Below, piece by piece: positions 9,238-64,000 of a stretch of DNA of 64,000 bases. The stretch spans positions 310,001 to 374,000 of the forward strand of contig NZ_VTRT01000005.1 in NCBI RefSeq assembly GCF_008274585.1, in the 5' to 3' direction. Numbering within the stretch: position 1 is the stretch's first letter; every line of letters starts with the position of its first letter. Origin of the DNA: Pedobacter sp. BS3. Its GTDB lineage: Bacteria > Bacteroidota > Bacteroidia > Sphingobacteriales > Sphingobacteriaceae. The translations under genes were made by a program, and so were the position numbers. The notes beneath the pieces were generated by a model. That model was not told the DNA's origin. It searched no databases and was given only the letters and a program-made list of their open reading frames with translations.

Positions 9238-9320
9238 TTCAGGCGATACACTTGTCCCGACCATTCGGGAATAGCTGTTTTTTTCCTCCGTTAATAATGT
9301 TGACAACTTTCAATAGCTTT

Positions 9321-9353
9321 AACGTTGACAACTTTTTAAAAGTTGTCAACGTT
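9321..9353. terminator. Perfect 33-bp palindrome between convergent genes
   Basis: The half site AACGTTGACAACTTTT is repeated exactly in inverted orientation around one central base, giving a 16-bp perfect stem. A partial copy (TGTTGACAACTTTC) lies at 9299-9312. Its position between DUF3467 (+) and miaA (-) suits a two-way terminator, although a hairpin with a one-base centre could equally be a protein-binding or recombination site. A second hairpin with AGCCCCG/CGGGGCT arms lies nearby at about 9408-9447. Confidence 0.5.
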
Positions 9354-9487
9354 CCCAACAGGTGATAGCAGCATTGCCTTAACCAAAATAAACCCGGCAG
9401 CAGCGGCAGCCCCGATTGCAATGAGGGCTACAGCGGATGACGGGGCTATGGTTACCCGATGCAATGCTGCAAGTGCTTTTCAAAAAG

Positions 9488-10429
9488 TTATAATCTACTT
9501 TCAATGAAGGTGATAATGTGTTCTGTTTCGCCGGGTGCAAACCAGTGGTATGACGGATCGCGTTTGAACCAGGTAAGCTGGCGCTTGGCGTAACGGCGGG
9601 TATTTTGCTTGATCTGGCTGATGGCGGTATCTAAGGATATTTCGTTATTCAGGAAGCGGAACAACTCGGTGTATCCTACCGTTTGCAGGGCATTGAGCGA
9701 TTGATTGGGAAGCAGGTTTTTTACTTCGTTCAGCAGTCCGTGCTGCATCATGAGGTCTACGCGTTGGTTGATGCGTTCATAAAGTAAATGCCGGTCGGTG
9801 TTTAATGCGATCTTAATGGTGTTAAAAGGGCGTTTTGAGGTTTGTTTGTTTCTGTACGATGAGAAAGGCCGTCCGCTGGTGCGGTAAACTTCAAGCGCCC
9901 GGATAATGCGTTGCGGATTGTTCAGATCGACCTGGGCGTAGTATTCCGGATCGTTTGTTTTTAGCTCTTCCTGTAAGGGGGTTAAGCCATGCTGGGTGTA
10001 AATGCTGTTAAGTTCTTTGCGGATAGCTTCGGGAGCTTTGGGTAACGCATCAAAGCCGTAACATACAGCATCAATGAACAAGCCGGAGCCTCCGGCCAAA
10101 ACTACCGTGTTATTGCTGATGAACAGGTTTGCCAATGTTTCAAGTGCCTGCTGTTCAAAATCGCCGGCGGTAAACGCATGGTAAATGCTGTGTGAGTTAA
10201 TGAAATGATGCTTTACCTGCTTTAATTCTTCGGGCGATGGTTTGGCCGTGCCGATGGACATTTCGCGGTAAAACTGCCTGGAATCTGCCGATATGATCTC
10301 GGTACGGAAGTGCTGCGCTACTTTAATGGCAAGCTCGGTTTTGCCGATCGCTGTGGGGCCGGCGATGACTATCAGTGTTTTGGGCGATGTACCTTCAGGC
10401 GGCTGATTCATTGATAAGCGAAAGCTCAA
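9488..10429 (-). CDS. miaA: tRNA dimethylallyltransferase
   Basis: 313 residues, normal length. MiaA transfers a dimethylallyl group to N6 of A37 in tRNAs that read UNN codons. The Walker A loop GPTAIGKT is at residues 24-31, followed by the substrate segments ISADSRQFYREMSIGTAKP, ALPKAPEAIRK, NNPQRIIRALEVYR and the C-terminal QIKQNTRRYAKRQLTWFKRD. A second ATG six codons in (10411) may be the true start. It is 24 bp downstream of the DUF2157-like gene, on the same strand. Confidence 0.96.
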   Translation of the reverse strand: MSFRLSMNQPPEGTSPKTLIVIAGPTAIGKTELAIKVAQHFRTEIISADSRQFYREMSIGTAKPSPEELKQVKHHFINSHSIYHAFTAGDFEQQALETLANLFISNNTVVLAGGSGLFIDAVCYGFDALPKAPEAIRKELNSIYTQHGLTPLQEELKTNDPEYYAQVDLNNPQRIIRALEVYRTSGRPFSSYRNKQTSKRPFNTIKIALNTDRHLLYERINQRVDLMMQHGLLNEVKNLLPNQSLNALQTVGYTELFRFLNNEISLDTAISQIKQNTRRYAKRQLTWFKRDPSYHWFAPGETEHIITFIESRL

Positions 10430-43381: not shown

Positions 43382-45172
43382 ATGAAAACTATTCAAACCA
43401 ATTGTTTCTATTATCTTCCAGGATTCATCCTGCTGCTCTTCTTCGCAATATCAGGCTGTAAAGATGATACCGACCTGTTCCAGGACGGCAGCCGCTTATA
43501 CATCGAAAAAGCAGATTCCGTACAATCCCTTTCGGGGAAGAACCGCGTGGAAATAAAGTTTGCCGTACCCGGCACCGATGCAGTGAGCGCTAAAATATAC
43601 TGGAACAACCGGGCAAATGCTATTGAAGTCCCGGTACAGGGAGATTCCATCAAAGCGATCATTGAACCGCTGGAAGAAGGCGAATATACCTTTGAGATCA
43701 TCACCTACGATGCCAAAGGCAACAGCTCCATTCCGGTAAAGATTGTAGGAACAGCTTATGGCAGCCAGTACGCCCAAACCCTGCAAAGCAGAGCTGTGAA
43801 AGATATTCTGTATGATAACGGAACCGCCATTGTATACTGGGGAGCGGCAGACGCAGAATCGGTAGTAACAGAAGTCAGTTATACGGATGCTTCCGGTACG
43901 GCAAAAAAGGTGAGCGTTCCATCATCGGCAGACTCTACGCTGCTGGAAAACATCAAACCCGGAACGCTGTACACCACCATTACCCATCACACGTTTTTCC
44001 GCCCGGTATCAGCTATCGATACCATTGCCGCCGCGTTCAAAACCGATACGGTGGTAACCGGCAGTCTGAAGGATCTGGCCAAGGCAAAGGGTATCTTGTT
44101 TGGCAGCCTGATCAGCTATGGGGGAGGCACAACGCATGGCGTTATTTACGATGGCTCGCCCAATGGCATTTACACCAAATTGTGCAGGAGCGAGTTCAAT
44201 CTTGGGCAAGCTACCTGGGGGCCAACCCGCTGGAGCATGACTCCGCCATCTAATTTTAACGATGTAAATGCAGTAATTAACTGGAGCCGGAACCAGTATG
44301 ATAAAGTAGAAACCATGCTGATCACCGGCCCGAATAATTATATGCCCGACTGGTTTGATAACGGTACGTTCACGCCGCAGGAAATGGACGTGCTGCTCAA
44401 AAACCTGGTGAACGAAATTATGGACAGCAATGACAATAAATCCAAGGTTGATGTGTGGTGCGTAGCCAATGAGCTGTTTAACGAAGACGGTACCTATCGT
44501 AATATGAAATGGAACGACATGGGCTGGGAAGATGATGCATCAGGATTAAAAGGTACCGACCAGGTTAACCTGAAACACCCGGCATTTATTGGCAAGGCGT
44601 TTCAATACTGCCGAGAAAGAACCAATGCCCTGTTAGAGCTTCGGGATTACGGTATTGAGAATGATGATCCCAAATCGCCGTCATATTATAAATACAAAGC
44701 GTTTTATCAGCTGGTAAAACACCTGAAAGCTACTAACCGACCGGTTAATGTGGTGGGCATACAGGCGCACATGATGATCGGCAAAGGTACGGCTGTGGGT
44801 ACGGCTGCCAATATGAAAGCGGATGTGCCGGCGGGCAGCTATGATACCTTTAAAAAAGCGATAAAGAGATATAAAGATGCCGGACTGGATGTTTATTTAA
44901 CCGAGTTGGATATTGTATCACTAATGCCAGGCTCACAGCTGCAACCCTGGACAAAAACGCTGGCCGAACAGCAGCGTAAAGATTATTACAATGTGGTTAA
45001 AACAGCTGTTGAGGCTGGCGTTAACTTAATTTCCCTTTGGGGATTACGGGATAATAACGATCCGGGTTGGCGGGTAGGGCAGAGTCCGTTGCTGTTTGAT
45101 GAAAATTATAACAAGAAGCCGGCATATTACGGCGTACAACGGGCATTTTTCGATGCGAAAATCAACCCCTGA
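43382..45172 (+). CDS. Surface lipoprotein GH10-family enzyme with DUF4998 domain, copy 1
   Basis: 596 residues. The lipobox AISGCKDD, with acidic residues right after the Cys, suggests surface display. A DUF4998 domain lies at about 30-130 (DGSRLYIEKADSVQ, AKIYWNNRAN), then a beta linker domain, then a GH10 TIM barrel at about 230-596. The likely acid/base is Glu364 (VANELF) and the nucleophile is Glu508 (LTELDI). GIQAHM and SLWGLRDNNDPGW are GH10-like. The canonical HTLVWH segment is replaced by MLITGPNNY before PDWF. The enzyme likely cuts xylan or a related backbone at the surface. Altered or weakened activity cannot be excluded. Confidence 0.88.
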   Translation: MKTIQTNCFYYLPGFILLLFFAISGCKDDTDLFQDGSRLYIEKADSVQSLSGKNRVEIKFAVPGTDAVSAKIYWNNRANAIEVPVQGDSIKAIIEPLEEGEYTFEIITYDAKGNSSIPVKIVGTAYGSQYAQTLQSRAVKDILYDNGTAIVYWGAADAESVVTEVSYTDASGTAKKVSVPSSADSTLLENIKPGTLYTTITHHTFFRPVSAIDTIAAAFKTDTVVTGSLKDLAKAKGILFGSLISYGGGTTHGVIYDGSPNGIYTKLCRSEFNLGQATWGPTRWSMTPPSNFNDVNAVINWSRNQYDKVETMLITGPNNYMPDWFDNGTFTPQEMDVLLKNLVNEIMDSNDNKSKVDVWCVANELFNEDGTYRNMKWNDMGWEDDASGLKGTDQVNLKHPAFIGKAFQYCRERTNALLELRDYGIENDDPKSPSYYKYKAFYQLVKHLKATNRPVNVVGIQAHMMIGKGTAVGTAANMKADVPAGSYDTFKKAIKRYKDAGLDVYLTELDIVSLMPGSQLQPWTKTLAEQQRKDYYNVVKTAVEAGVNLISLWGLRDNNDPGWRVGQSPLLFDENYNKKPAYYGVQRAFFDAKINP

Positions 45173-45185
45173 TAAACTGATGTAC

Positions 45186-46934
45186 ATGAAAACCATTCAG
45201 GCTAACTGCTTCTGTTATCTTTCAGGATTTATCCTGCTCTTCTTCGCTATTACAGGCTGTAAAGACGATACGGAACTGTTTAAAGACGGCAGCCGTTTGT
45301 ATATCGAAAAAGCAGATTCCGTACAATCCCTTTCGGGAAAGAACCGCGTGGAAATAAAGTTTGCCGTACCCGGAACCGATGCGGTAACCGCCAAAATATA
45401 TTGGAATAACCGGGCAAATGTGATGGAAGTTCCCATTGAGCAGGATTCCATAAAAGCGATCATTGAACCGCTGGAAGAAGGCGAATATACCTTTGAGATC
45501 ATCACTTACGATGCCAAAGGCAATAGCTCTATCCCTGTAAAGATTACCGGAACGGTCTTTGGGAGCCAGTACGCCCAAACCCTGCAAAGCCGTCCGGTAA
45601 AGGATATTTTATACGATAATGGAACCGCCATTGTGTACTGGGGAGCGGCAGACGAAGAATCCGTGTTAACGGAGGTCAATTATACAGATGCTTCCGGTGC
45701 AGCGCAAAAGGTGAATGTTCCATCATCGGCAGACTCTACGCTGCTGGAAAACATCAAACCCGGAACGCTGTACACCACCATTACCCATCACACATTTTTC
45801 CGCCCGCTATCAGCTATCGATACCATTGCCGCCGCGTTCAAAACCGATACGGTGATAACCGGCAGTCTGAAGGATCTGGCCAAGGCAAAAGGTATTTTCT
45901 TTGGCAGCCTGATTAGTTATGGGGGAGGTGCGTCACATGGTGTGATCAACGACGGTTCACCTAACCATATTTATACTGAGCTATGTAAAAAAGAATTCAA
46001 TATCGGGCAAGCTACCTGGGGCCCCGGTCGCTGGAATAAAGATACTCCTTCCGATTTTAACGATGTAAACGCAGTAATTAACTGGAGCCGCGGACAATAC
46101 GATAAGGTAACGGCCATGTTGATCACAGGTCCGGATAATTATATGCCGGCATGGTTTACCGGTGGTACGTTTACGCCAACCGAGATGGATGCTATGCTGA
46201 AAAAGCTGGTGAATGAGATCATGGACAGCAATGATAATAAATCCAAGGTTGATGTGTGGAACGTGGCAAACGAATTGTTTAACAACGACGGCACCTACCG
46301 GGATATGAAGTGGGACGATATGGGCTGGGAAGATGATGCGTCAGGATTAAAAGGTACCGACCAGGTTAACCTGAAACATCCGGTGTTTATCGGAAAAGCG
46401 TTTCAATATTGCCGCGAAAAAACAAATGCCCTGTTAGAGCTTCGGGATTACGGTATGGAAAACGGCGATCCGAGCGACCGGTATTATACGAAGTACAAAG
46501 CCTTTTATCAATTAATAAAGCATTTAAAAGCGACAAATCGTCCGATAGATGTTGTAGGTATTCAGGGCCACATGACCATTGGGGCGTCATACCCGAACGG
46601 TTATGATACTTTCATGAAAACCGTAAAGAAATTTAAAGACGCCGGAGTTGATGTTCATATTACAGAACTAGACATCGTTTCTGCCAAGGTTAATTCGCAG
46701 CCGCAGCCCTGGACTAAAGCGCTTGCAGATCAGCAACGCAAAGACTATTATGATGTTGTAACGGCAGCGCTTAAAAGCGGTGTTAATTTAATCTCCCTTT
46801 GGGGATTAAGGGATAATAATGACCCCAACTGGATGTACGGACAGGCGCCGTTATTGTATGATGAAAATTACCACAAAAAACCGGCATATTATGGCGTGCA
46901 ACGGGCGTTATTTGATGCCATAGCGAACAAATAA
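45186..46934 (+). CDS. Surface lipoprotein GH10-family enzyme with DUF4998 domain, copy 2
   Basis: About 582 residues from the ATG at 45186, 13 bp after copy 1. An open frame from 45096 overlaps copy 1 and is not used. The lipobox is AITGCKDD. It has the same DUF4998 plus GH10 plan. The likely acid/base is Glu363 (VANELF) and the nucleophile Glu494 (ITELDI). The canonical HTLVWH is again absent, reading MLITGPDNY. It differs from copy 1 by VWNVANE for VWCVANE and by a shorter loop after GIQGHM (about 14 residues missing). The N-terminal halves are nearly identical in DNA over long patches. This is a tandem duplicate with possible new specificity. Confidence 0.88.
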   Translation: MKTIQANCFCYLSGFILLFFAITGCKDDTELFKDGSRLYIEKADSVQSLSGKNRVEIKFAVPGTDAVTAKIYWNNRANVMEVPIEQDSIKAIIEPLEEGEYTFEIITYDAKGNSSIPVKITGTVFGSQYAQTLQSRPVKDILYDNGTAIVYWGAADEESVLTEVNYTDASGAAQKVNVPSSADSTLLENIKPGTLYTTITHHTFFRPLSAIDTIAAAFKTDTVITGSLKDLAKAKGIFFGSLISYGGGASHGVINDGSPNHIYTELCKKEFNIGQATWGPGRWNKDTPSDFNDVNAVINWSRGQYDKVTAMLITGPDNYMPAWFTGGTFTPTEMDAMLKKLVNEIMDSNDNKSKVDVWNVANELFNNDGTYRDMKWDDMGWEDDASGLKGTDQVNLKHPVFIGKAFQYCREKTNALLELRDYGMENGDPSDRYYTKYKAFYQLIKHLKATNRPIDVVGIQGHMTIGASYPNGYDTFMKTVKKFKDAGVDVHITELDIVSAKVNSQPQPWTKALADQQRKDYYDVVTAALKSGVNLISLWGLRDNNDPNWMYGQAPLLYDENYHKKPAYYGVQRALFDAIANK

Positions 46935-47759: not shown

Positions 47760-50700
47760 TCACACATCCCGTTTCTCATTACTGAAACTGGCGTATTCTT
47801 TTGGTGTATGTCCAAACTGGTCTTTAAAACATCTACGGAAATAATCAATATCCAGGAACCCGACCATATAAGCAACTTCATTTACATTCAGCTTATTTTG
47901 TTCAAGCAGTTGCGCCGCACGTTTAAGCCGTACACTCCTGATAAACTCAATGGCTGTCTGGTTGGTTAAGGCTTTGATTTTACGGTACAGCGTAACCCGG
48001 CTCATGCCTACTTCTTTACCCAGCTCTTCCACGCTCAGTGTGGGCTCGGTAATATTCTTTTCAATAAAATTCATCACCTTTTCCAGAAATTTCTCATCGG
48101 GAGAAGTAATGGCAATATTGGTAGGTTGCAGGCTGATTTCCTTACGATAACGTTCACGCAGTTTCTGTCTGGAATCCAGCAGGTTCCATACCCGTGCTTC
48201 CAGCATGGTTAGGTTAAACGGCTTGGTAATATAATCATCAGCACCGGTTTCCAGCCCCTCGATTTTAAAGATGAGCGGTGTGCGGGCAGTGAGTAAAATA
48301 ACCGGAACGTGGCTGGTACGTGTATCTGCTTTCAGTTTACTACATAAAGCGATACCGTTCATTTCAGGCATCATCACATCGCTGATGATGATATCGGGAA
48401 TGATATTCAGCGCAATTTCAAATCCCTGTAAACCGTTTGATGCCGTATGTATCTCAAACTCCTGCTCAAAATGCGAGGAGACAAACTGCTGCACCTCAAC
48501 ATTGTCTTCAACCACCAGCATAATCATTTTATCTTTACCGGCAGTGCTTAATACGTGCTGCTTTCTTTTCTCTATGGCTTGTTTGGCAGTGCCTGTTATC
48601 TCAGATTCGCGGTAGCTTTCAATGTTTTCGCTGTCTTTGTAGTTGGAGATGATCTCATTTTCAGACAGGTGTTCATTGCCTAACGGAAGCGTGATTTTGA
48701 AGCAGGTGTATCCATGATGTTCCGGCGTAGCTACCCGGCTTTCTACGGTTACATCGCCATGATGAAGGGCTATCAGCCCCTTTGAAAAGGCCAGCCCGAT
48801 ACCTGTGCCATTACTATTGGTTCCGTTATCATCATAATGATTAAACTGCTCAAATATTTTGCTGATATGCTGCGGTGGAATGCCAATACCGTTGTCTTCT
48901 ACTTCAATGAGTAACAATTCTTTCTCAGACTCGGGCAATGACGTTTTGATGCGGATAGTCACCTGACCACCTTCTGGCGTGAACTTTAATGCGTTGGAAA
49001 GCAGGTTGTAGATTACTTTTTCCAGTTTATCCCGGTCAAACCAGAGCCTGATCCGCGGATTTTCGGGAATAAGCTTGATTTTGATTTTACGGTGGGCGGC
49101 ATAAGATTCAAACGCCATGACAATTTCTTTAATGAACCGCACGATATTACCCTCGGCAGCCTGTAGCTTCATGCTGCCCGACTCAAACTTTCTGAAATCA
49201 AGCAACTGGTTTATCAGGCGTATCAGGCGCTCGCCGTTACGCTGCATCAGCATCAGCTGGTTCTGTATTTTATTGTTGCCTTCGTTCATACTGAGCAGCT
49301 TATCAATAGGCGCCAGTATCAGGGTGAGCGGCGTTTTAATCTCGTGAGAGATGTTGGTAAAGAAGCTGAGCTTGCGCTGGGCCAGTTCCTGATCCTTTTC
49401 ATGGCTTCTGTGCTCAAATTCCAGGTCATTTTTTAACCGTACCGTTTTTAAAGAATAGTAGTAAAACAGGTAAAGCAAAGAGCTCATAATTGCTGCGTAA
49501 AGCAGGTATGCCCACCAGGTTTTCCACCAGGGCGGTAAAACGGTAATACGAATGCTTTTTATTTCGTCATTCCATACGCCATCGTTGTTGGCGGCTTTTA
49601 CCTGGAACGTATATTTTCCGGCATCCAGATTAGTATACGTAGCCATACGCTGGTTGCCTACATAATGCCAGTCATCATCATAAAATCCTTCCAACCGGTA
49701 AGCGTATTGATTTTTGTCGGGATTTACATAATTCAGGGCTGCAAATTTGAATGTAAAAAAGGCTTGATCATGTGTTAACGTAACTTTTCTCGTTTGTTCA
49801 ATGGCCTTTTTCAATGGCGAATTTTGGGTATTGATAGTTACCGGGGTGTTTTTGATCAGGAAATCGGTAATAACTACTTTGGGCTTAAAGGTGTTGCGGA
49901 TAATTTTTTCGGGGAAAAATGTGGTAATTCCATTGATTCCGCCAAAAAGTAATTCACCATCTTCGCCGGTTTCCGCCGCTCCCGATGCGAACTGGTTACT
50001 TTGCAAACCATCCGCGACAGTATAATTCATTATGCTAACTGCATTTTTAAGAAAGGGCTGGTTAAAGTTTTTAAACGTTATTCTTGATAAGCCTTTATTG
50101 GTACTTACCCATAAATTATGCATTCTGTCTTCGCGGATGTTATGAATAACCGTATTGGCCAGCCCGTTTTTATCCGTTATGGTATAAAATCTGCCGGCGC
50201 CTTTGTCAAACATATTTAGTCCGCCGCCTTCGGTACCAATCCACAACCGTTGCTTTGAATCAAAAAATAGTGATAAAATGGTATTGCGGCTGATACTGTG
50301 CGGATTGCGGATGTTATTGGTGTATTCTGTGAAAGAATTAGTGCTTTTATCGTAATAGCTCAAACCTCTTTCTGTCCCGATCCACAAGTTATTGCTGTTG
50401 TCCTTTAGCAATGCCAGGATAATATTGCCGCTGATGCTTTTCTTATCTTTAATATTATGTGTATAGGTGGTTATATGTCCCTGCCGGTCCATGAATTTCA
50501 ATCCCCGGCCGTCGGTTCCCAGCCAGATACCGTCTTTATCAATAGCCAGTGCATATACCTGTTTATTCTCCGGTTTGGCATCGTGCTCACTTATCTCATA
50601 GCTGGTAATAGCGCCGGTTTGGGTATCCATATAACTAACGCCATCATAAGTGCCAATCCACAGGTTACCTTTGGCATCTTTAGCCAGGCATTTGACAATA

Positions 50701-51965
50701 TTTTGCTGCTTGCTGTTTATCACGTAGCTTTTAAAAACAGCATTTTTACGGTCGATATAATTTAAACCGCCGCCTTCGGTTCCTATCCAAAAAGCGCCGT
50801 TGTCTGCTTTAAGAATAGAGCTTACAACCCGATGCGTAAGACCTGGTTCTTTACCAAACTGCTCGCCCAGGTAAGAGAAGTTGGTGCTGCTCAGCGAAAA
50901 AACATTTAAACCGCCGGCATAAGTGCCAATCCACATGTTACCGGCACGGTCTTTCATAATGTACCGGATGGAATTGTGGCTTAATGTTGTCGGGTCGTAG
51001 TGATTGTATTTATAGTTGTAAAAATGATTGTTGGTGAGATTCAAAATGCTGAGACCATCACGGGTTCCAATCCATAACTCGTTATCAGAATAAGGGAAAA
51101 TAGTGCGGACGATGCTCACCGGCAGACTGTTTTTATCCTGCGGATTGTTTTTGTAATTCACGCAGGTATTGGTTTGCGGGTTATAACGGTACAACCCGGA
51201 AGTTTCTGTACCAAACCAGTATTCGCCGTTTTTAAGCTGTTTTATTGTTCGTACATTACTTCTTCGCAGCTCCAGGTTGTTTTGAAGTATGGCAGGCAAG
51301 GGGATGATCTTTCCTTTTGCAGGATCAAAACATTTCAGATCTTTACCGGTCCCGATCCAGAGTAGTTTATGCGTATCCTGAAATATGGTCTGAACCCGTA
51401 CACCACCGGTATTTCCTGTATTGCCTCCTAGGTCATACGCGATTATTTTCTTAGACGGATAATCAAATCGTTTTAACCCGTTATAGGTTCCAATCCACAG
51501 GTTTCCGTAGCTGTCGTATAAAAAGGAAGTAATAAAATCATTAGACTCGCTGTCTTTATTCATGCCGGTGCTTACACGGGTAAACGTTTCGGTATTCCTG
51601 TCAAACAGGTTAAGCCCGTCGGAAGTTCCTACCCAGAAATTTCCTTTAGGATCTTCATACAGGGCATTTACCTGGCTGTGGCTCAAGCTGTGCGGATTAT
51701 TGTTGTCATGCTTGTAGATCGTAAACTCATAGCCGTCGTATTTATTCAGGCCGTCTTCGGTACCTATCCAGATAAAGCCGGTTTTATCCTGCATAATGGT
51801 AAAAACGGTGTTTTGAGAAAGGCCTTCGTTAATGGTAAGCCGTTTAAATGTAATATGATTCTGGGCATGAACGTTTGCTCCGGGAAGGAACATGAAACAA
51901 CTGCAGCAAAGTATGAAATACCTGCGTAAACTTATCGATGGTCTGCTTTTTGCGAGATTCAGCAC
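47760..51965 (-). CDS. Hybrid two-component system regulator (HTCS), right flank of the PUL
   Basis: 1401 residues. After a signal peptide (to about 35) come about fourteen propeller repeats (WIGTEDGLNKYDG type), a Y_Y_Y domain (about 720-805), one membrane helix (about 812-834), a histidine kinase with ISHEIKTP (His874), GIGIPPQHI and GTGIGLAFSKGLI, a receiver with Asp1196 (SDVMMPEMNG), and an AraC-type HTH (about 1300-1400, YMVGFLDIDYFRRCFKDQFG). It is a paralogue of the regulator at 21492, convergent with the PUL operon. Two intact sensors for one locus suggest two inducers or two target promoters. Confidence 0.95.
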   Translation of the reverse strand: MLNLAKSRPSISLRRYFILCCSCFMFLPGANVHAQNHITFKRLTINEGLSQNTVFTIMQDKTGFIWIGTEDGLNKYDGYEFTIYKHDNNNPHSLSHSQVNALYEDPKGNFWVGTSDGLNLFDRNTETFTRVSTGMNKDSESNDFITSFLYDSYGNLWIGTYNGLKRFDYPSKKIIAYDLGGNTGNTGGVRVQTIFQDTHKLLWIGTGKDLKCFDPAKGKIIPLPAILQNNLELRRSNVRTIKQLKNGEYWFGTETSGLYRYNPQTNTCVNYKNNPQDKNSLPVSIVRTIFPYSDNELWIGTRDGLSILNLTNNHFYNYKYNHYDPTTLSHNSIRYIMKDRAGNMWIGTYAGGLNVFSLSSTNFSYLGEQFGKEPGLTHRVVSSILKADNGAFWIGTEGGGLNYIDRKNAVFKSYVINSKQQNIVKCLAKDAKGNLWIGTYDGVSYMDTQTGAITSYEISEHDAKPENKQVYALAIDKDGIWLGTDGRGLKFMDRQGHITTYTHNIKDKKSISGNIILALLKDNSNNLWIGTERGLSYYDKSTNSFTEYTNNIRNPHSISRNTILSLFFDSKQRLWIGTEGGGLNMFDKGAGRFYTITDKNGLANTVIHNIREDRMHNLWVSTNKGLSRITFKNFNQPFLKNAVSIMNYTVADGLQSNQFASGAAETGEDGELLFGGINGITTFFPEKIIRNTFKPKVVITDFLIKNTPVTINTQNSPLKKAIEQTRKVTLTHDQAFFTFKFAALNYVNPDKNQYAYRLEGFYDDDWHYVGNQRMATYTNLDAGKYTFQVKAANNDGVWNDEIKSIRITVLPPWWKTWWAYLLYAAIMSSLLYLFYYYSLKTVRLKNDLEFEHRSHEKDQELAQRKLSFFTNISHEIKTPLTLILAPIDKLLSMNEGNNKIQNQLMLMQRNGERLIRLINQLLDFRKFESGSMKLQAAEGNIVRFIKEIVMAFESYAAHRKIKIKLIPENPRIRLWFDRDKLEKVIYNLLSNALKFTPEGGQVTIRIKTSLPESEKELLLIEVEDNGIGIPPQHISKIFEQFNHYDDNGTNSNGTGIGLAFSKGLIALHHGDVTVESRVATPEHHGYTCFKITLPLGNEHLSENEIISNYKDSENIESYRESEITGTAKQAIEKRKQHVLSTAGKDKMIMLVVEDNVEVQQFVSSHFEQEFEIHTASNGLQGFEIALNIIPDIIISDVMMPEMNGIALCSKLKADTRTSHVPVILLTARTPLIFKIEGLETGADDYITKPFNLTMLEARVWNLLDSRQKLRERYRKEISLQPTNIAITSPDEKFLEKVMNFIEKNITEPTLSVEELGKEVGMSRVTLYRKIKALTNQTAIEFIRSVRLKRAAQLLEQNKLNVNEVAYMVGFLDIDYFRRCFKDQFGHTPKEYASFSNEKRDV

Positions 51966-52149: not shown

Positions 52150-52212
52150 ATGATCGAAAAAGCAAGATTAGTATTGAAAGATTTTGTTGAAGAAGTAAAT
52201 CGTAAAATGTAA
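52150..52212 (+). other. 20-codon open frame at the head of the duplicated TA module
   Basis: ATG at 52150 gives MIEKARLVLKDFVEEVNRKM and stops 20 bp before the antitoxin. A -7 box TATTTTTG (52138-52145) ends four bases upstream, so the transcript would begin at about this ATG. A decayed copy of its end (GGTTGAAGAAAGTAAACCGTAAAAT) precedes the second antitoxin. It may be a leader peptide or the relic of a lost gene. Confidence 0.3.
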
Positions 52213-52232
52213 AACATTAAATTTGGGTAATC

Positions 52233-52457
52233 ATGGCAGTACTTTCATTTGAAATAGAAGAATCTGAGGTTTCAAAGATCCGGACCATCCTCAAAGCATT
52301 AGGAGCTAAAAAGCTTAAAGTAAAAGAGGACGAGACTAAAATGACTAAAGAGGAGTTTTACGCAAAAATTGATGAATCTATCAAGCAAGCTGCGGAAGGA
52401 AAAGTTCAGAAACTCACCCCTGAGCTGAAAAAGGAACTTTTTAAAAGTATTTTATGA
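52233..52457 (+). CDS. Antitoxin of YoeB-type module, tandem copy 1
   Basis: 74 residues. MAVLSFEIEESEVSKIRTILKALGAKKLK resembles small antitoxins with an N-terminal strand and helix. The C-terminus (MTKEEFYAKIDESIKQAAEG) is a charged helix suited to toxin binding. It overlaps the toxin start by 4 bases (ATGA). Copy 2 at 52817 has nearly the same first 56 residues and a different tail. The two tails would be expected to contact their own toxins. Confidence 0.8.
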   Translation: MAVLSFEIEESEVSKIRTILKALGAKKLKVKEDETKMTKEEFYAKIDESIKQAAEGKVQKLTPELKKELFKSIL

Positions 52458-52723
52458 GATACGAAATAGTTTTGACGGATAATGCCGAAAACGATATTAA
52501 AAAGTTAGAGAAATCAGGCGACAAAAAATCATTAAAAAAATTCCTTTCACTTTTGGGTGAACTGGAAGAGCATCCTACCTCCGGCACAGGTAAACCGGAA
52601 CGTCTAAAACATTACGCGTTGCCAACCTGGTCAAGAAGAATATCGGATAAACACCGGCTGGTTTACCAGGTTCAGGAATCGATCGTTACCGTACTGGTAT
52701 TGTCTGCCTGGGGGGCACTATGA
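52454..52723 (+). CDS. YoeB-type toxin, copy 1, with frameshifted C-terminus
   Basis: 89 residues. The YoeB core is present: GTGKPERLKHY with the conserved Glu, and TWSRRISDKHRLVYQV with the conserved Arg. The end reads SAWGAL and stops. One G fewer in the six-G run at 52710-52715 would give SAWGHYDDK, the usual end of this subfamily with the catalytic His-Tyr pair. Copy 2 has five Gs and reads SAWGYYDDK. The present sequence has thus lost the catalytic C-terminus. It may be an inactive toxin, a slippage-controlled one, or a sequencing error in a homopolymer. Confidence 0.8.
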   Translation: MRYEIVLTDNAENDIKKLEKSGDKKSLKKFLSLLGELEEHPTSGTGKPERLKHYALPTWSRRISDKHRLVYQVQESIVTVLVLSAWGAL

Positions 52724-52816
52724 CGATAAGTGAAGAAATAAAGCCGGTACAGGGGTGCAAAAATTTTGGTTGAAGAAAGTAAACCGTAAAATATAAGAAT
52801 ACTAAATTTAAGAAAC

Positions 52817-53041
52817 ATGGCAGTGCTTTCATTTGAAATAGAAGAATCTGAGGTTTCAAAGATCCGGACCATCCTCAAAGTTTTAGGGGCTAAAAAGCTT
52901 AAAATAAAAGAGGACGAGACCAAAATGACTAAAGAGGAGTTTTACGCAAAAATTGACAGGTCTATCAAACAGGCGGCGGAAGGCAGGGTTACTACAATCC
53001 GAAATAAATCAGAACTTAAGTCTTTTTTAGATAACTTATGA
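52817..53041 (+). CDS. Antitoxin of YoeB-type module, tandem copy 2
   Basis: 74 residues. The start MAVLSFEIEESEVSKIRTIL is identical to copy 1, and the sequence stays nearly identical to residue 56. The tail is then different (TTIRNKSELKSFLDNL). The leader before it is also a copy of the leader of copy 1, so the whole unit was duplicated. The frame is intact, although its toxin (53038-53307) is broken. It overlaps that toxin start by four bases. Confidence 0.78.
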   Translation: MAVLSFEIEESEVSKIRTILKVLGAKKLKIKEDETKMTKEEFYAKIDRSIKQAAEGRVTTIRNKSELKSFLDNL

Positions 53042-53307
53042 GTTATTTTCTTGATTTTACGGAAGAGTCTAAAAATGACATACAGAAAATAAAGAAATCG
53101 GGTAATAAAATACTTTTTAAAAAGTTGAATAACTTACTCGAAGAACTGACGATACATCCTGCCTCCGGCACAGGTAAACCGGAACTGCTAAAACATTAAA
53201 CCTGGTCAAGAAGAATATTGGATAAACACAGGTTGGTCTACCAGGTTTAGGAATCGATTGTTACCGTACTGGTATTGTCTGCCTGGGGGTACTATGACGA
53301 TAAATAA
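53038..53307 (+). pseudogene. YoeB-type toxin, copy 2, interrupted by two stops
   Basis: The frame begins MSYFLDFTEESKNDIQKIKK and runs to GKPELLKH, then TAA at 53197-53199. Comparison with copy 1 shows that an in-frame deletion of 9 bases made this stop. The same frame continues TWSRRILDKHRLVYQV, meets TAG at 53248-53250 where copy 1 has CAG, and ends SAWGYYDDK at 53307. It is a clear pseudogene with two separate lesions, neither shared with copy 1. Confidence 0.85.
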
Positions 53308-57425: not shown

Positions 57426-57473
57426 GCAGGATGGTACATAACAGATATGGTAGCTGTCCGGTCTAACTTTATG
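57426..57473 (+). promoter_or_regulatory. Conserved upstream element of the third SusC
   Basis: A block ending GTACATAACAGATA (57426-57447) is followed, after exactly 15 bases, by CTAACTTTATG (57463-57473). The same two blocks with the same spacing occur at 62384-62431 before the fourth SusC. TAACTTTA is close to the -7 consensus TAnnTTTG. The first block is thus in the position of an activator or -33 element. AACTATTTAAA at 57501-57511 is a second shared motif near the start codon. Confidence 0.5.
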
Positions 57474-57522
57474 TAAACCAATTTACTCTCATCATGCAAT
57501 AACTATTTAAATCTAAATTATT

Positions 57523-60500
57523 ATGGAAAAAAGTCAACATTTCGAAATCAGATGCCGGTACTGTTACCTGCTATTACTTATTCTGTTTAGCAGTATTCAG
57601 GCGTTCCCGCAGGCTCAAAATGGTATAATAAAAGGAAAGGTCAGCGATCAGTCGGGGCCGCTGGCAGGCGCCTCTGTATCGGTTTCGGGTACATCGTACG
57701 GTGCTGTAGCCGATGTAGAAGGAAATTATATGATCAGGGTTCCCGAAGGTACTTATACCGTTGTGGCATCTTTTATTGGTTACACTAAGGCAATAGCTAA
57801 AGATGTTAAAGTGACCGCCGGTGCAGAAACAAGTACCAATTTTAGCCTGGTAACCAATAACCAGCTACAGGAAGTAGTTGTAAGCTATGGTAAGCAGAGA
57901 GCACGTGAAGTTACCGGTTCTATTGGTGTGGTTGAAGCCAAAGGAATGCAGGATATGCCGGTAAACCAGTTTGCACAGCAGTTACAGGGCAAAGTTGCCG
58001 GTGTGCAGGTTTCACAGCAGAGTGGGAAACCCGGGCAGGGTGTTAGTTTTCGCATCCGGGGGGCCGCTTCGTTCTATGCCGATAACCAGCCGCTTTTTGT
58101 GATCGATGGTATCCCGATCACAGGTAGCATCAATAATATCAATCCAAGCGAAATAGAAAGTTTCAGTATCTTAAAAGATGCTTCGGCTACGTCGTTATAT
58201 GGTTCAAGAGCAGCCAACGGTGTAGTGCTGATTACCACAAAGCATGCAAAGGCAGGCGAATCAAAAATAGAGTTCTCCGGTAACTACGGTACCCAGAAGA
58301 TACCAACCGAAAGAGTCCCTAAACCGATGAACGCAGAACAGTTTGCCCGGTTTATGCAGGAACGCTATGAAGACAAAGTAAAATATGAGAATTTTAACCC
58401 GGCCAATATACCTGCTGAGTACCAGGGCGATGTATCAAGGTATGGCGAAGGTACTAACTGGTACAAACTGCTAACCCGTACGGCGCCTATTCAAAATTAT
58501 GATCTGAGCATACAATCGGCTCGCGAGCATTCCTCATCTACCGTTATTGCCGGCTACCAGGAGCAGCAGGGAGTAATTATCAATAATGGAACAAAGCTTT
58601 TCTCGCTTCGTGCCAACCAGGATCTGACATTAAGCAATAATAAGCTGAAATTAGGGTTTAGTATAGCGCCAAGCTATCGTATAGATCATAATAACCGTTT
58701 GGGAACAGACGGGGTTAGCGGTCTTTTTGAACGTTTCTTTGAGGCCAGCCCGTTGATCAGCCCATACAATGAAGACGGAAGCTACATTCGTGCTGTAAAT
58801 TCACCGGGTATGGTAAGCTATATTAACCCCCTGGCCATTTATAATCTTACCAACGATGATTATTATACTACCCGCATTTTAGCAAGTACCTACCTTAATT
58901 ACGAATTTTTGCCGGGCCTAAGCATTAAAACCAATGTATCGGTAGATAAAGGAGCCGAAACCCGTAAATATTTCCAGTCGGGGCAGGTAACCTCTACGCC
59001 GGGACAGACCACCGGAACCAGCTCTTCGGTTGATAACGGCTCATGGACAGTAGAAACAAACCTGGAGTACAAAAAGACGTTTTTTGAAGATCATCACATA
59101 GAAGCCCTGGTAGGCTACTCGGCACAAAAGTTTTCTCAAAACGGTAATACCCTGACGGGGCTGGGCTTTGCCAGCGATGATATTGAATACCTCACAGCGG
59201 CTACCAGTGTTACCGGGAACAGTAGCTATACGGCATATTCCATGCTCTCTACCATTGCCCGTTTAAACTATAATTACAAAGGTAAATACCTGTTATCCGG
59301 CGCTTTCAGGCGTGATGGCTCCTCCCGTTTTGGTGAAAACTCACAGTATGGAGTTTTTCCCTCTATATCTGCCGGCTGGATAGTGAGCGATGAGCCGTTC
59401 ATGGCAAAATTCAGGCAGATCGACCTGTTAAAAATACGGGCGGGCTATGGTCTGACCGGTAATAATTCTTTCCCCAGAAATTATGAGGCCCAGGCAACTA
59501 TTGGTAATTATTATTACAATTTTAATAATACGATTACCCAGGGATCGATCAATAACCGGTTGCCTAATAAGGATTTGCGGTGGGAGCGTAATAAGCAGTT
59601 TGACATAGGTCTGGACATAGCGGTATTGAGCAACCGGATCAGCTTTACATACGACTATTATCATAAAATTACCGATGACCTGATTATGAGCAGGCCGATG
59701 CCTAAATCTTCAGGATTTGCGGACATACTTGATAATGTAGGCAAGCTGGAAATGTGGGGGCATGAGTTTACGGTATCATCCCGGAATTTAACCGGTAAGC
59801 TGACATGGAATACCAGCTTAAATCTTTCTTTCGACAGGAATTTGATTAAAACATTGGTTTCTCCGGGCTATATCCGGCGCAACAATACGGTAACATCCGA
59901 TTACTATCGGCAGCAGGAAGGGCATCACCTCGGAGAGTTTTACGGGTTTGTATTCTTAGGATTATACAAAGATGCGGCAGATCTGGCTAATTCTGCCAAA
60001 TATTTGCCTACTGCAACTAACCCGAACGGAAGCTCTGATGTGGGTACGATCAAGGTTAAGGATATTAATGGTGATGGTGTAATTGACGATGTGAACGACC
60101 GTACGTTTATTGGCGATCCAACGCCAACTTTTACCGGTGGGATGATTAACAATTTCAGGTACAAAAATTTTGACCTGAATATTGATATGACCTTCTCGGT
60201 AGGAGGCAAGCTGTTAAATGCTGCAAAATGGGCCTACCAAACCAATATGGATGGCTCCCGCGTGCTGCTGGCCGATGTGCTGGATAATTACTGGCGCTCG
60301 CCTGAAAATCCGGGCTCCGGTGCTTATCCGCGTACCAAAACCGGGACAACAGCCCTTGGCCGGGAAGTTAACTCTCAGTGGATAGAGAACGGTTCTTACC
60401 TTGCCGCTAAAAATATCTCGCTGGGATATACCGTACCATTGAAAAAGAACGTGATGTTTAAAAATATAAGAGTATATGCCTCTGTGCAGCAGGCCTTTGT

Positions 60501-60636
60501 AATAACCGGTTATAGCGGTATGAACCCGGAAGTTAACGTGGGTGGAGCCGACCCAACATCTGGCTGGGGAGTAGATGAAAATGCGTATCCCATTCCGCGA
60601 ACATTCTCGCTGGGTATTACAACAACTCTTAAATAA
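57523..60636 (+). CDS. SusC/RagA-type TonB-dependent transporter (third pair)
   Basis: 1037 residues. The signal sequence ends near residue 32 (QAFPQ). Then come a regulatory-like beta domain (GKVSDQSGPLAGASVSVSG), the plug start LQEVVVSYGKQRAREVTGS, plug motifs FRIRGAASFYADNQPLFVIDG and LKDASATSLYGSRAANGVVLITT, and a barrel ending SLGITTTLK. It is an outer-membrane importer for a glycan or peptide, substrate unknown. With its SusD 17 bp downstream it forms a separate unit from the xylan-type locus, without glycoside hydrolases in the window. Confidence 0.94.
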   Translation: MEKSQHFEIRCRYCYLLLLILFSSIQAFPQAQNGIIKGKVSDQSGPLAGASVSVSGTSYGAVADVEGNYMIRVPEGTYTVVASFIGYTKAIAKDVKVTAGAETSTNFSLVTNNQLQEVVVSYGKQRAREVTGSIGVVEAKGMQDMPVNQFAQQLQGKVAGVQVSQQSGKPGQGVSFRIRGAASFYADNQPLFVIDGIPITGSINNINPSEIESFSILKDASATSLYGSRAANGVVLITTKHAKAGESKIEFSGNYGTQKIPTERVPKPMNAEQFARFMQERYEDKVKYENFNPANIPAEYQGDVSRYGEGTNWYKLLTRTAPIQNYDLSIQSAREHSSSTVIAGYQEQQGVIINNGTKLFSLRANQDLTLSNNKLKLGFSIAPSYRIDHNNRLGTDGVSGLFERFFEASPLISPYNEDGSYIRAVNSPGMVSYINPLAIYNLTNDDYYTTRILASTYLNYEFLPGLSIKTNVSVDKGAETRKYFQSGQVTSTPGQTTGTSSSVDNGSWTVETNLEYKKTFFEDHHIEALVGYSAQKFSQNGNTLTGLGFASDDIEYLTAATSVTGNSSYTAYSMLSTIARLNYNYKGKYLLSGAFRRDGSSRFGENSQYGVFPSISAGWIVSDEPFMAKFRQIDLLKIRAGYGLTGNNSFPRNYEAQATIGNYYYNFNNTITQGSINNRLPNKDLRWERNKQFDIGLDIAVLSNRISFTYDYYHKITDDLIMSRPMPKSSGFADILDNVGKLEMWGHEFTVSSRNLTGKLTWNTSLNLSFDRNLIKTLVSPGYIRRNNTVTSDYYRQQEGHHLGEFYGFVFLGLYKDAADLANSAKYLPTATNPNGSSDVGTIKVKDINGDGVIDDVNDRTFIGDPTPTFTGGMINNFRYKNFDLNIDMTFSVGGKLLNAAKWAYQTNMDGSRVLLADVLDNYWRSPENPGSGAYPRTKTGTTALGREVNSQWIENGSYLAAKNISLGYTVPLKKNVMFKNIRVYASVQQAFVITGYSGMNPEVNVGGADPTSGWGVDENAYPIPRTFSLGITTTLK

Positions 60637-60653
60637 GCATATACAGTAATTAT

Positions 60654-62183
60654 ATGATCAAAGTTATGAAAAAGACAGTTATAGCGTTTGCCTTGTTGGC
60701 ACTAACAGCGGCAACATCCTGTAATAAAGATTTTATTGATTTAAAACCTAAGGACTCTTATACCGATGAGGTATTTTACAAAACCGAAGAGCAGTTCAAG
60801 TCTGCTGTTGTTGCAGCGTATGCACCGCTCAGGGATGTGCTGGTAAATGATTATTTTACTTCAGAAATGCACTCGGATAATACCGGTTATCAGCCTATAC
60901 CTTCTAACCGGGGTACCGCTTACATTGAGCGGGAAAATATTTCTGATTTTACTAACACGTCCACCAATGCTTATGCGGCAGCAACCTGGGAGCATAGCTA
61001 TAAGGGCATTTCCAGGTGTAATATTATAATCGGTAAATTGTCTGCGGCCGATATTCCCGAAGCCACAAAGACCAATCTTGACGGACAGGCTAAATTTTTA
61101 CGGGCATTAAATTATTTCAAGCTGGTGCGTTTGTTTGGCCCCCTGCCGTTATTCACCACCGAAGTAACCAGGGCCGATGATGCGTTCATACCCCGTTCGT
61201 CGGTAGACGAGGTATATGCCCAGATCATTGCGGATGCGAAAGATGCAATTAATGAGCTGCCTGCACCTGCGTTCCCGCAAACCGGCGTTGCAACCAAAGG
61301 CGCTGCAACCATGTTGCTGGCCGAAGTGTATGCTACACAAAAAAAATGGACTGATGCAGAACAACTGTTGAGGAATTTGCTGACAATGGGCTATGCTTTA
61401 AATGCTAATTATGCCGATGTATTTAATCCTGCCAATAAGAACAGTAAAGAATCCATTTTCGAGATCCAGTTTTTGGGCGGTACGGTAACCGGTTCAACAC
61501 CAAACCCGCTATCGTTTCATTTTATTCCAAGAAGTACAGATACCAAATTATTGACCGGTATTACTGTAAATAACACCAGCACCGGTGGCTGGAATACCCC
61601 CACTCAAAATCTGATCAATGATTTTGAACCGAATGACAAGCGTTTGGATGCTTCTATCGGTATAGCCGAGGGAACATATAATGCCAGCGATTATTTTACT
61701 TATTCGGCAGTTAAAAGTATTATTAATTATACCCCGGCTCCCGGCAAGGTCGGTGTGCCTTACATTAAAAAGTATTTACATTCACCATTGCCCAACGCAA
61801 CCGGGTCAAGTGATGATTTTCCGATTTACCGTTATGCTGATGCACTGCTGCTTTTGGCCGAAGCGCTGAATGAGCAGCCCGGCAAATCATCGCAAGCGTT
61901 AACGTATTTAAACATGGTGCGTGACAGGGCCTTTGGAGCAGGAGTGAGCCCCATCACTACAACAGACCCGAATGCTTTACGCGAAATTATTTACCACGAG
62001 CGCAGGGTTGAATTAGCCTTTGAAAATCACCGGTGGGAAGATCTGCTCAGAACAGGCCGGGCAATCAGCGTGATGAATGCTTTTGGAATAACCATTGATA
62101 ATCACAATCTGCTGTTCCCTGTACCAGACGCTGAAATAGGTGTGAATCCTAAATTGCTCCCCCAAAATCCGGGATATTTTTAA
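60654..62183 (+). CDS. SusD/RagB-type lipoprotein (third pair)
   Basis: 509 residues from 60654. The ATG at 60666 (MKKTVIAFALLALTAATSC) is a likelier start for the signal peptide. The lipobox is TAATSC. SusD hallmarks are GQAKFLRALNYFKLVRLFGPLP, PRSSVDEVYAQIIADAKDAI and HERRVELAFENHRWEDLLRTG. It partners the SusC upstream. A strong terminator follows at 62258. Confidence 0.94.
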   Translation: MIKVMKKTVIAFALLALTAATSCNKDFIDLKPKDSYTDEVFYKTEEQFKSAVVAAYAPLRDVLVNDYFTSEMHSDNTGYQPIPSNRGTAYIERENISDFTNTSTNAYAAATWEHSYKGISRCNIIIGKLSAADIPEATKTNLDGQAKFLRALNYFKLVRLFGPLPLFTTEVTRADDAFIPRSSVDEVYAQIIADAKDAINELPAPAFPQTGVATKGAATMLLAEVYATQKKWTDAEQLLRNLLTMGYALNANYADVFNPANKNSKESIFEIQFLGGTVTGSTPNPLSFHFIPRSTDTKLLTGITVNNTSTGGWNTPTQNLINDFEPNDKRLDASIGIAEGTYNASDYFTYSAVKSIINYTPAPGKVGVPYIKKYLHSPLPNATGSSDDFPIYRYADALLLLAEALNEQPGKSSQALTYLNMVRDRAFGAGVSPITTTDPNALREIIYHERRVELAFENHRWEDLLRTGRAISVMNAFGITIDNHNLLFPVPDAEIGVNPKLLPQNPGYF

Positions 62184-62257
62184 AGAATAAATTGCTTTGT
62201 CTGACTGGTTTAAGTTTTTCTCTCTTAACATCTACCCTGGTTATAATTAGTTTATCG

Positions 62258-62287
62258 GGCTCTCCCGCCTATCGGGAGAGCCTTTTT
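62258..62287 (+). terminator. Rho-independent terminator after the third SusD
   Basis: GGCTCTCCCG pairs perfectly with CGGGAGAGCC around a 5-base loop, followed by TTTTTATTTT. It is the clearest intrinsic terminator of the window and closes the third SusC/SusD operon. Confidence 0.9.
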
Positions 62288-62383
62288 ATTTTCTCTCACG
62301 GTATTGTATTTCATGATAAACCTGGTGGAAATAATATAATGGTTACTTAATGCTTATTTAATAGCCTCTCCGGTAATTAGCAG

Positions 62384-62431
62384 GCAGGATAGTACATAAC
62401 AGATACCGATCACACTTCATCTAATTTTATG
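62384..62431 (+). promoter_or_regulatory. Conserved upstream element of the fourth SusC
   Basis: The block ending GTACATAACAGATA (62384-62405), a 15-base spacer and CTAATTTTATG (62421-62431) match the element before the third SusC at 57426-57473 in sequence and spacing. The shared leader motif AACTATTTAAA follows at 62471-62481. The nearest ATG (62491) opens a 38-codon frame. The SusC itself starts 210 bp further on. Confidence 0.5.
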
Positions 62432-62490
62432 ACACTAACAGCACGAAACTGCTTACGCAGTTTATTAACTAACTATTTAAACCATAAGTT

Positions 62491-62607
62491 ATGAACCGGA
62501 AATTTTACTTGAGAACAGGATGTTATCACAACATCCGGCCTCTGCGGCATCTTGTATTCGCTCTGAACAGTCACATACCAAATAAAAATAATACAGGCTT
62601 TATTTAG
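62491..62607 (+). other. 38-codon open frame in the leader of the fourth SusC
   Basis: The frame starts MNRKFYLRTGCYHNIRPLRH and ends at TAG 62605-62607. It begins at the place where a SusC start is expected relative to the conserved AACTATTTAAA motif, and it is in the same frame as the SusC at 62701. It reads like the basic N-terminal extension of some longer SusC proteins. It may be a leader peptide, or the relic of an older start cut off by a stop codon. Confidence 0.3.
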
Positions 62608-62700: not shown

Positions 62701-64000
62701 ATGAGAAAAAGGGTACTACCATTCATTTTTTTGTGGGTATTTCTTTTTTGCGGTACTGCTTACCCTGCTCAGAAGCACAGTACAATAGTGTTTTTGAGTA
62801 GTAATAGCACTGAAACAGGCATATCGCATAAAAAAGAATCCAATGATGGAATGCTAAAAAAAGAAATCCGCGGTACAGTGCGGGATTCATTAGATGTGCT
62901 GCCGGGGGTATCGGTTAAGGTAAAAGGCACTACCAACGGTACCACTACAGATTTAAACGGGAAATACATCCTGGATGTTCCGGATGATAATGCCGTGCTG
63001 GTATTTTCAATGGTGGGATATACCCCGCAGGAGATTCCGGTTAAAGGTAAGGAAGTGATCAATGTTACCTTAAAAGCGGTAGGCAATAATCTGGAAGAGG
63101 TAGTTGTGGTAGCTTTCGGCCAGCAAAAGCGTACCGACATGGTGGGCTCGGTAACATCGGTGAGCGTGAAGGATCTGAAAGTTCCATCGAGCAACCTTAC
63201 TACGGCCTTAGCCGGCAAGGCAGCAGGTATTATTGCATACCAGCGCAGCGGCGAGCCGGGCCAGGATAATGCAGATTTCTTTGTGCGTGGCGTTACTACG
63301 TTTGGTTATAAAACATCACCGTTGATCCTGATTGATGGTATGGAATTAACCACAACCGACCTGGCCAGGTTGCAGCCGGATGATATCGCCAGCTTTTCGA
63401 TATTAAAAGACGCCACATCGACAGCGGTATATGGCGCCCGTGGCGCTAATGGTGTTATCCTGGTAACCACCAAGCAGGGTGCTGTGGGCAAAGCCAAGCT
63501 GGCGTTTCGCCTGGAGAACTCCATTTCATCGCCCACGCAAAACATTGAATTTGCCGACCCGATAACGTATATGAAACTGGCTAACGAAGCCAATCTGACA
63601 CGAGACCCGCTGCTGGGTACCATTTATTCGGATGATAAGATAGCGAATACTGCCAGCGGCAAAAATTCAATTATTTATCCTGCCAATAACTGGTTGGACA
63701 TGCTGGTTAAAAAACATACCAGCACGCAGCGGGCAAACCTGAACATAAGTGGCGGCGGCGGTGTAGCCAAATATTTCGTGTCCGGCTCTGCTAATAAAGA
63801 TAACGGTATCCTTAGGGTAGACCCACGCAATAACTTCAACAATAATATTGACCTGAAAAGCTATACCCTGCGTAGTAACGTTACCATCGACGTAACTAAA
63901 ACCACTAATATGATTGTCAGGTTAAGTGGTAATTTTGATGATTATACCGGACCCATTGACGGCGGTTCAGGCATGTACCGCAAAATTATGCGGGCTAATC
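62701..64000 (+). CDS. SusC/RagA-type TonB-dependent transporter (fourth), 3' end outside the window
   Basis: The open frame from the ATG at 62701 runs to the right edge, giving about 433 residues. It has a signal sequence (about 1-21, FLFCGTAYPAQ) and a polar spacer of about 30 residues. A regulatory-like beta domain follows (about 55-130, RGTVRDSLDVLPGVSVKVKG), then the plug start LEEVVVVAFGQQKRTDMVGS and plug motifs FFVRGVTTF, LILIDGME and ILKDATSTAVYGARGANGV, then the first barrel strands. It lacks an STN domain. It is likely followed by a SusD gene beyond the edge. Confidence 0.9.
   Translation, partial: MRKRVLPFIFLWVFLFCGTAYPAQKHSTIVFLSSNSTETGISHKKESNDGMLKKEIRGTVRDSLDVLPGVSVKVKGTTNGTTTDLNGKYILDVPDDNAVLVFSMVGYTPQEIPVKGKEVINVTLKAVGNNLEEVVVVAFGQQKRTDMVGSVTSVSVKDLKVPSSNLTTALAGKAAGIIAYQRSGEPGQDNADFFVRGVTTFGYKTSPLILIDGMELTTTDLARLQPDDIASFSILKDATSTAVYGARGANGVILVTTKQGAVGKAKLAFRLENSISSPTQNIEFADPITYMKLANEANLTRDPLLGTIYSDDKIANTASGKNSIIYPANNWLDMLVKKHTSTQRANLNISGGGGVAKYFVSGSANKDNGILRVDPRNNFNNNIDLKSYTLRSNVTIDVTKTTNMIVRLSGNFDDYTGPIDGGSGMYRKIMRAN

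Follow-up and report, generated by a model that had tools for sequence, protein, structure and literature searches.

A putative L-rhamnose-regulon promoter ahead of two SusC genes in Pedobacter sp. BS3

The two-part element and its position

The window analysed here is a stretch of 64,000 nucleotides of Pedobacter sp. BS3 (contig NZ_VTRT01000005.1, positions 310,001 to 374,000), whose right end contains two genes for SusC outer-membrane importers, SusC1 followed by SusD1, and SusC2. Both SusC genes are preceded by the same two-part element, and the features of the region are listed in Table 1. An initial annotation had described two blocks upstream of these genes, in the same order and separated by an identical gap of 15 bases, at 57426-57473 and 62384-62431, and both are present there: the pattern GTACATAACAGATA-N15-CTAAYTTTATG matches exactly at 57434-57473 and 62392-62431, with no match in 100 dinucleotide shuffles and 0 expected by chance. 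What the two places share is the blocks and their spacing; the surrounding DNA is unrelated, as annotated, and so is the sequence in the gap. The conserved stretch starts 7 bases earlier than described, with CAGGATRG at 57427 and 62385. Once this overlooked first half is added, the element becomes a tandem repeat with a period of 10 bases, CAKRAYRG-N2-CAKRAYAG, followed by 19 bases and a -7 box.

Table 1. Features of the two SusC operons and their predicted promoters, in window coordinates
Feature	Position	Strand	Remark
First half-site, predicted SusC1 operator, CAGGATGG	57427..57434	+	register from relatives' rhaT promoters
Second half-site, predicted SusC1 operator, CATAACAG	57437..57444	+	10 bases past first half-site
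-7 box, SusC1, TAACTTTA (TAnnTTTG type)	57464..57471	+	19 bases past second half-site
11-mer AACTATTTAAA before SusC1 start	57501..57511	+	probably generic A+T-rich start context
SusC1, 1037 amino acids, no STN domain	57523..60636	+	TIGR04056 above cut-off
SusD1, 509 amino acids	60654..62183	+	
Terminator-like hairpin (11 pairs) and T run, end of SusC1-SusD1 operon	62257..62283	+	such matches about as frequent as in shuffles
First half-site, predicted SusC2 operator, CAGGATAG	62385..62392	+	sequence match to repeat
Second half-site, predicted SusC2 operator, CATAACAG	62395..62402	+	sequence match to repeat
-7 box, SusC2, TAATTTTA	62422..62429	+	19 bases past second half-site
11-mer AACTATTTAAA before 38-codon open reading frame	62471..62481	+	
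38-codon open reading frame in SusC2 leader	62491..62607	+	in frame with SusC2, two stops between
SusC2, 1080 amino acids in total, extends beyond window	62701..64000	+	heads GH106/GH78 rhamnosidase cluster

Distribution of the element in the genome and the family

The annotated pattern, allowing up to 3 mismatches, was identified in the 4.81-Mb genome only at the two places of the window (reversed control 0). The same genome contains 94 matches to CarbopepD_reg_2, and two places against 94 rule out a general SusC promoter. The SusC gene at 30680 carries the 11-mer AACTATTTAAA without the two-part element, and a search for plasmid relatives of the SusC1 promoter gave no match. A relaxed pattern (up to 2 mismatches) identified six places, with none in the reversed control: in front of rhaT, SusC1 (57523), SusC2 (62701), a GH78 rhamnosidase gene (L028) and a gene for an extracytoplasmic function (ECF) sigma factor (L028:10265), and a doubtful site with 2 mismatches at C12:410120.

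The copy before rhaT is perfect (0 mismatches; C21:653135-653179). The rhaT operon comprises RhaT (equivalog NF010024, above cut-off), a bifunctional rhamnulose-1-phosphate aldolase/dehydrogenase, a rhamnose-isomerase-like protein and an FGGY kinase, the last two falling below the NCBIfam cut-offs. The site of the ECF gene was first detected by a matrix of 25 rhaT promoters described below; it lies at L028:10117-10161, with half-sites CAGGACAG and CAGGATAG, 5' of the sigma factor gene (L028:10265-10846; C23:402117), which is followed by FecR (L028:11179) and by SusC3, a SusC bearing an STN domain. This ECF/FecR pair is found about 30 kb past SusC2. The sequence between the blocks differs at the rhaT, GH78 and ECF sites. 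A dedicated promoter for a set of SusC genes had been proposed, and it is indeed shared by two SusC operons; a set defined by SusC type is not supported, because rhaT, GH78 and the ECF gene carry the element and the other SusC genes of the genome do not. The gene content supports a regulon whose membership would be set by the sugar, rhamnose, and not by the type of gene.

Among 399 genomes of the family the annotated pattern was identified at three places outside Pedobacter sp. BS3. In one genome (G093) it lies 5' of a rhamnosidase-like gene followed by a GH106-like gene and rhaT, the translations being named by eye; in another (G104) it lies 5' of rhaT, beside a divergent gene of the GntR family. 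The match in the third (G216, L026) was discarded as probable chance, with no gene start suitably placed downstream. The sites of the first two genomes revealed the tandem repeat CATRACAG-TA-CATRACAG, of which the second half only had been seen before.

A strict pattern (up to 2 mismatches) was present in 138 of 301 Sphingobacteriaceae genomes, the reversed control giving 1. The gene rhaT was identified in 136 of these 138 genomes versus 217 of the 301 overall, in a set of related and hence not independent genomes. The pattern-bearing genomes lacking rhaT are G020 and G147. In the former (L131, G020:C63:52700-57700) the site precedes what appears to be the last part of rhaT only, followed by rhaEW, which suggests a shortened rhaT under a retained promoter.

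The first gene downstream was recorded for 20 sites, hand-picked among the matches listed so as to favour sites away from rhaT, although four proved to precede rhaT or rhaEW. The others were SusC (3), GH78 or GH78-like genes (3), GH106 (1), a GH39-like gene just below cut-off (1), a PL11-type rhamnogalacturonan lyase (1), ECF sigma factors (4, in the relatives' loci L139, L140, L141 and L145), a cysteine-rich (CCG) protein resembling one of the rha operon of Pedobacter sp. BS3 (1) and other genes (2). Thus 18 of the 20 hand-picked sites precede rhamnose or polysaccharide-utilisation genes. Of the three SusC sites two, from two other genomes, precede genes orthologous to SusC1 (64% identity), which shows the site of SusC1 to be retained along with the gene.

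Promoter architecture, candidate regulator and alternatives

The geometry of the promoter was established on 29 rhaT promoters of relatives, Pedobacter sp. BS3 being excluded. Allowing 3 mismatches and a distance of up to 300 bases from the start region, the repeat was present in 25 of the 29. Of these 25, 24 have a TAnnTTWG box (at most 1 mismatch; 11 exact) precisely 19 bases after the repeat; other offsets gave 0-3. With the matrix built from the 25 promoters the window sites score 20.5 and 22.9, the next-best window position -1.8 and the best position in 20 simulated 64-kb windows 5.8. Excerpts of PMC7366714 and PMC6847099 give TAnnTTTG as the -7 consensus recognised by the primary sigma factor of Bacteroidota, and the boxes TAACTTTA and TAATTTTA fit it except for the last base, A instead of G. 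The -33 TTTG box is absent from the window sites, where its place is taken by ACAG of the second half-site; excerpts of PMC6847099 describe this box as weak in F. johnsoniae too.

A further motif accompanies part of the sites. Of 80 sites, 33 have CCAAT within 40 bases, versus 6 of 158 upstream windows, and in many sites ACCAAT stands about 5 bases after the -7 box, as in the window at 57477-57482; the SusC2 site has no ACCAAT. This motif is possibly a start-site or 5'-end signal. A search of the window for a -7 box followed by ACCAAT returned only a chance-level match.

The genes accompanying rhaT point to a regulator of the GntR family. Of the 30 rhaT loci examined, which are those most like the RhaT of Pedobacter sp. 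BS3 and not a random sample, 11 have a GntR gene similar to that of G104 no farther than 1.5 kb from rhaT; among 18 regions with flanks of about 9 kb, 3 others have one. With the GntR protein of Pedobacter sp. BS3 as query, 37 of 80 loci contained rha genes in the examined flank, and 24 of the 80 contained the composite site, in every case upstream of rhaT or rhaEW, against none of 80 in the reversed control. Among 13 family genomes compared by eye, 8 have a strong GntR match, 6 of them together with the site; the site is absent from all 5 that have no such match.

The genome of Pedobacter sp. BS3 encodes an ortholog on C21 (C21:639611-640729), about 12 kb from rhaT. The window's contig carries a second paralog (C23), 81 kb leftward of the first element. 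The recognition helix SRDTAEKGY is common to the C21 protein and the rhaT-linked GntR proteins, and is SRDSINKGY in the C23 paralog; the former is for this reason the better candidate. The C23 paralog adjoins a gene for a DeoR-type regulator, as judged by eye (L127:7790-8557 and 9047-10078; C23:284789-287077), and no neighbouring rha gene was noticed. The C21 protein contains the GntR winged helix (PF00392) and a periplasmic-binding-protein-like domain (PF13377), both above cut-off. Its structural model (predicted local distance difference test 86.7, predicted template modelling score 0.81) matches LacI-family and sugar-binding proteins of the LacI/periplasmic-binding-protein fold with Z about 20, the Foldseek and VIA-align rows spanning the sugar domain (about residues 86-342) and giving little test of the DNA-binding part. 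For the latter a sequence match was obtained to the DNA-binding part of an arabinose repressor (4egy). On gene linkage, the element is thus likely to be read by a regulator of the GntR family whose sugar domain is LacI-like.

Taken together, the element is quite probably an L-rhamnose-regulon promoter, composed of the operator of a GntR regulator and a housekeeping -7 box. The two tandem half-sites (CAKRAYRG and CAKRAYAG, 10-base period) would be bound by the regulator, whose sugar domain is LacI- or periplasmic-binding-protein-like. The operator would sit in the position of the -33 box, with the -7 box for the housekeeping sigma factor of Bacteroidota following after 19 bases. Cytoplasmic rhamnose or a derivative would bind the regulator, which would then help RNA polymerase to start (class II activation). 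The gene set makes rhamnose or rhamnulose the obvious choice of inducer. The genes switched on would be those of rhamnose uptake and breakdown (rhaT operon), the two SusC/SusD importers, GH78, and GH106 if co-transcribed, as well as the ECF sigma gene beside FecR and the STN-bearing SusC. As to the sign of control, an activator touching RNA polymerase is rather likely, since it agrees with the constant spacing between operator and -7 box and with an operator lying over the -33 region; repression lifted by the sugar is the less probable arrangement.

Several observations weigh against this reading. The strict pattern is missing from 81 of the 217 rhaT-bearing genomes, and in 43 of the 80 GntR loci the examined flank contains no rha gene. 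Pedobacter sp. BS3 itself has two GntR paralogs (60% and 54% identical to the rhaT-linked protein of G104), neither of them directly beside rhaT, and the promoter region of its own GntR gene contains no good site. GntR proteins usually bind palindromes and not tandem repeats. Finally, the element was identified on 0 of 29 SusC2 orthologs in relatives, and the SusC2 site is therefore recent or lineage-specific. SusC2 lacks the STN domain found in its paralog SusC3 (70% identity), which suggests that control of SusC2 may have changed in its own lineage.

The best surviving alternative, itself unlikely, is that the operator serves an AraC- or DeoR-type rhamnose regulator, the linkage to GntR being incidental. 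The Bacteroides RhaR is of AraC type, and DeoR-type RhaR operators are tandem repeats with a period of 10-11 bp, both according to excerpts of PMC3870299. The GntR linkage counted above is against it. No AraC regulator was identified in 18 rhaT regions with flanks of about 9 kb or in the 37 rha-linked GntR loci, using a profile of 4 own sequences that matched 3 of 109 other loci. Likewise no homolog of the own DeoR protein was present in the 18 regions or the 30 rhaT loci, other DeoR types not being sought.

Activation of both SusC operons by a local hybrid two-component system (HTCS), for example that at 47760-51965, acting through the repeat, is improbable. Two HTCS genes do lie inside the window (21492-25610 and 47760-51965), and the HTCS motifs of Bacteroides are direct repeats (PMC3878776, in excerpt). 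The published repeats are, however, longer, with sites of 12-16 bp and spacers of 5-9 bp (same excerpts), the regulator linked to rhaT is a GntR protein, and throughout the family the same element precedes rhaT, whose product is a sugar permease of the inner membrane.

The initial annotation had suggested that an ECF sigma factor may be the reader; the upstream block would then serve as -35 and CTAAYTTTATG as -10. This is now very improbable, in spite of the ECF/FecR pair past SusC2: the downstream block agrees with the -7 box of the primary sigma factor (excerpts of PMC7366714 and PMC6847099), the upstream block is a tandem repeat of the kind read by transcription factors and is common to rhaT, and such an element also precedes the ECF gene itself. 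In addition, SusC1 and SusC2 have no STN domain, whereas their ECF-linked paralog SusC3 does. The element may drive the ECF gene rather than be read by its product. That the SusC2 upstream region is merely a recent copy of that of SusC1, without regulatory meaning, can practically be dismissed, for although SusC1 and SusC2 alone among the SusC genes of the genome carry the element, block and spacing are preserved within unrelated flanking and intervening DNA, and the rhaT, GH78 and ECF sites share the element with different intervening sequence.

The preferred GntR reading can be extended to a hierarchy, for which the chances appear evenly balanced. In it the cytoplasmic GntR sensor of the sugar would be placed over trans-envelope signalling, a single operator type governing monosaccharide uptake, SusC/SusD importers, rhamnosidases and ECF genes; free intracellular rhamnose would arm an ECF/FecR/STN-SusC pathway sensing the polymer outside, and SusC2, having no STN domain, would have left ECF control for direct control by GntR.

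Neighbouring features and known systems

The initial annotation had also placed AACTATTTAAA 8-11 bases ahead of the start codons at 30680, 57523 and 62491. The placement is correct; neither 62491 as the start of SusC2 nor a specific role in SusC leaders was sustained. The ATG at 62491 opens the 38-codon open reading frame, and SusC2 begins at 62701. The motif occurs three times in the window versus 0.16 expected, and its 19 sites in the genome are at chance level versus 15 (4 + 11) for the reversed control, which rules it out as a SusC leader signal. Five of the 19 lie 8-11 bases ahead of an ATG opening a reading frame of at least 38 amino acids, these being the three window copies and two elsewhere, and the motif was not found just 5' of the remaining CarbopepD_reg_2 matches when coordinates were compared by eye. 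It is probably a generic A+T-rich start context. The 38-codon reading frame occupies the spot where SusC genes with such a promoter usually begin, as if it were a leader peptide or a decayed first start. Comparison of the SusC2 leader with the DNA upstream of SusC3 gave no convincing homology.

The genes left of SusC1 encode MarR, two flavoprotein oxidoreductases and a ferredoxin-like protein, with no ECF/FecR pair directly upstream. The terminator-like hairpin sits between SusD1 and the second element, and 3' of SusC2 there are a SusD gene, three GH106 genes, and then GH78 and GH106 rhamnosidase genes. Farther left, two adjoining GH10 genes with DUF4998 (43382-46934) share a locus with the SusC genes at 30680 and 35437 and the HTCS at 21492; this locus is probably of xylan type and unrelated to the rhamnose locus. 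At 52193-53289 a small gene pair with a YoeB-like toxin is tandemly duplicated (85-93% identity, 575-584 bases apart), the second toxin copy being shortened by a stop.

No paper on a GntR-type rhamnose regulator in Sphingobacteriaceae was found in the open-licence PMC literature. With this element the Sphingobacteriaceae, a large group of plant-polymer degraders, gain a readable rhamnose regulon and a named candidate regulator unlike the family used by Bacteroides. The operator can be searched for, and substrates can thereby be assigned to uncharacterised SusC/SusD loci. If the ECF step is true, intracellular sugar sensing would stand in a hierarchy over outer-membrane ECF signalling, two systems that the literature, as represented by the excerpts cited, treats as separate.

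Among known systems, AraR of Bacillus subtilis has the same plan of a GntR winged helix and a LacI-like domain, and its effector domain (3tb6_A) matches the regulator model with Z 19.6 and a root-mean-square deviation of 3.8 over 248 residues. AraR is an arabinose repressor with palindromic operators, unlike the tandem repeat found here. The ECF sigma/FecR/STN-SusC systems of Bacteroidota resemble SusC3, which has the STN domain, and differ from SusC1 and SusC2, which lack it and have the repeat promoter. RhaR of Bacteroides thetaiotaomicron (BT3768) is comparable in that rhamnose catabolic genes are under a dedicated positive regulator with a tandem-repeat operator; it is an AraC-type protein with a repeat periodicity of 21 bp and one target operon (excerpts of PMC3870299 and PMC3878776), whereas here the regulator would be of the GntR family, the period is 10 bases and SusC/SusD, rhamnosidase and ECF genes are included. 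Also comparable is ManR of B. thetaiotaomicron (BT2103), a GntR-type monosaccharide regulator with predicted control of a SusC/SusD operon, glycosidases and sugar uptake; its sugar is mannose and not rhamnose, and the excerpts of its description (PMC3878776) mention no ECF gene as a target. The present case would be a rhamnose counterpart of ManR; from the Bacteroides RhaR it would differ in the family of its regulator and in its operator, and its targets would include ECF genes.

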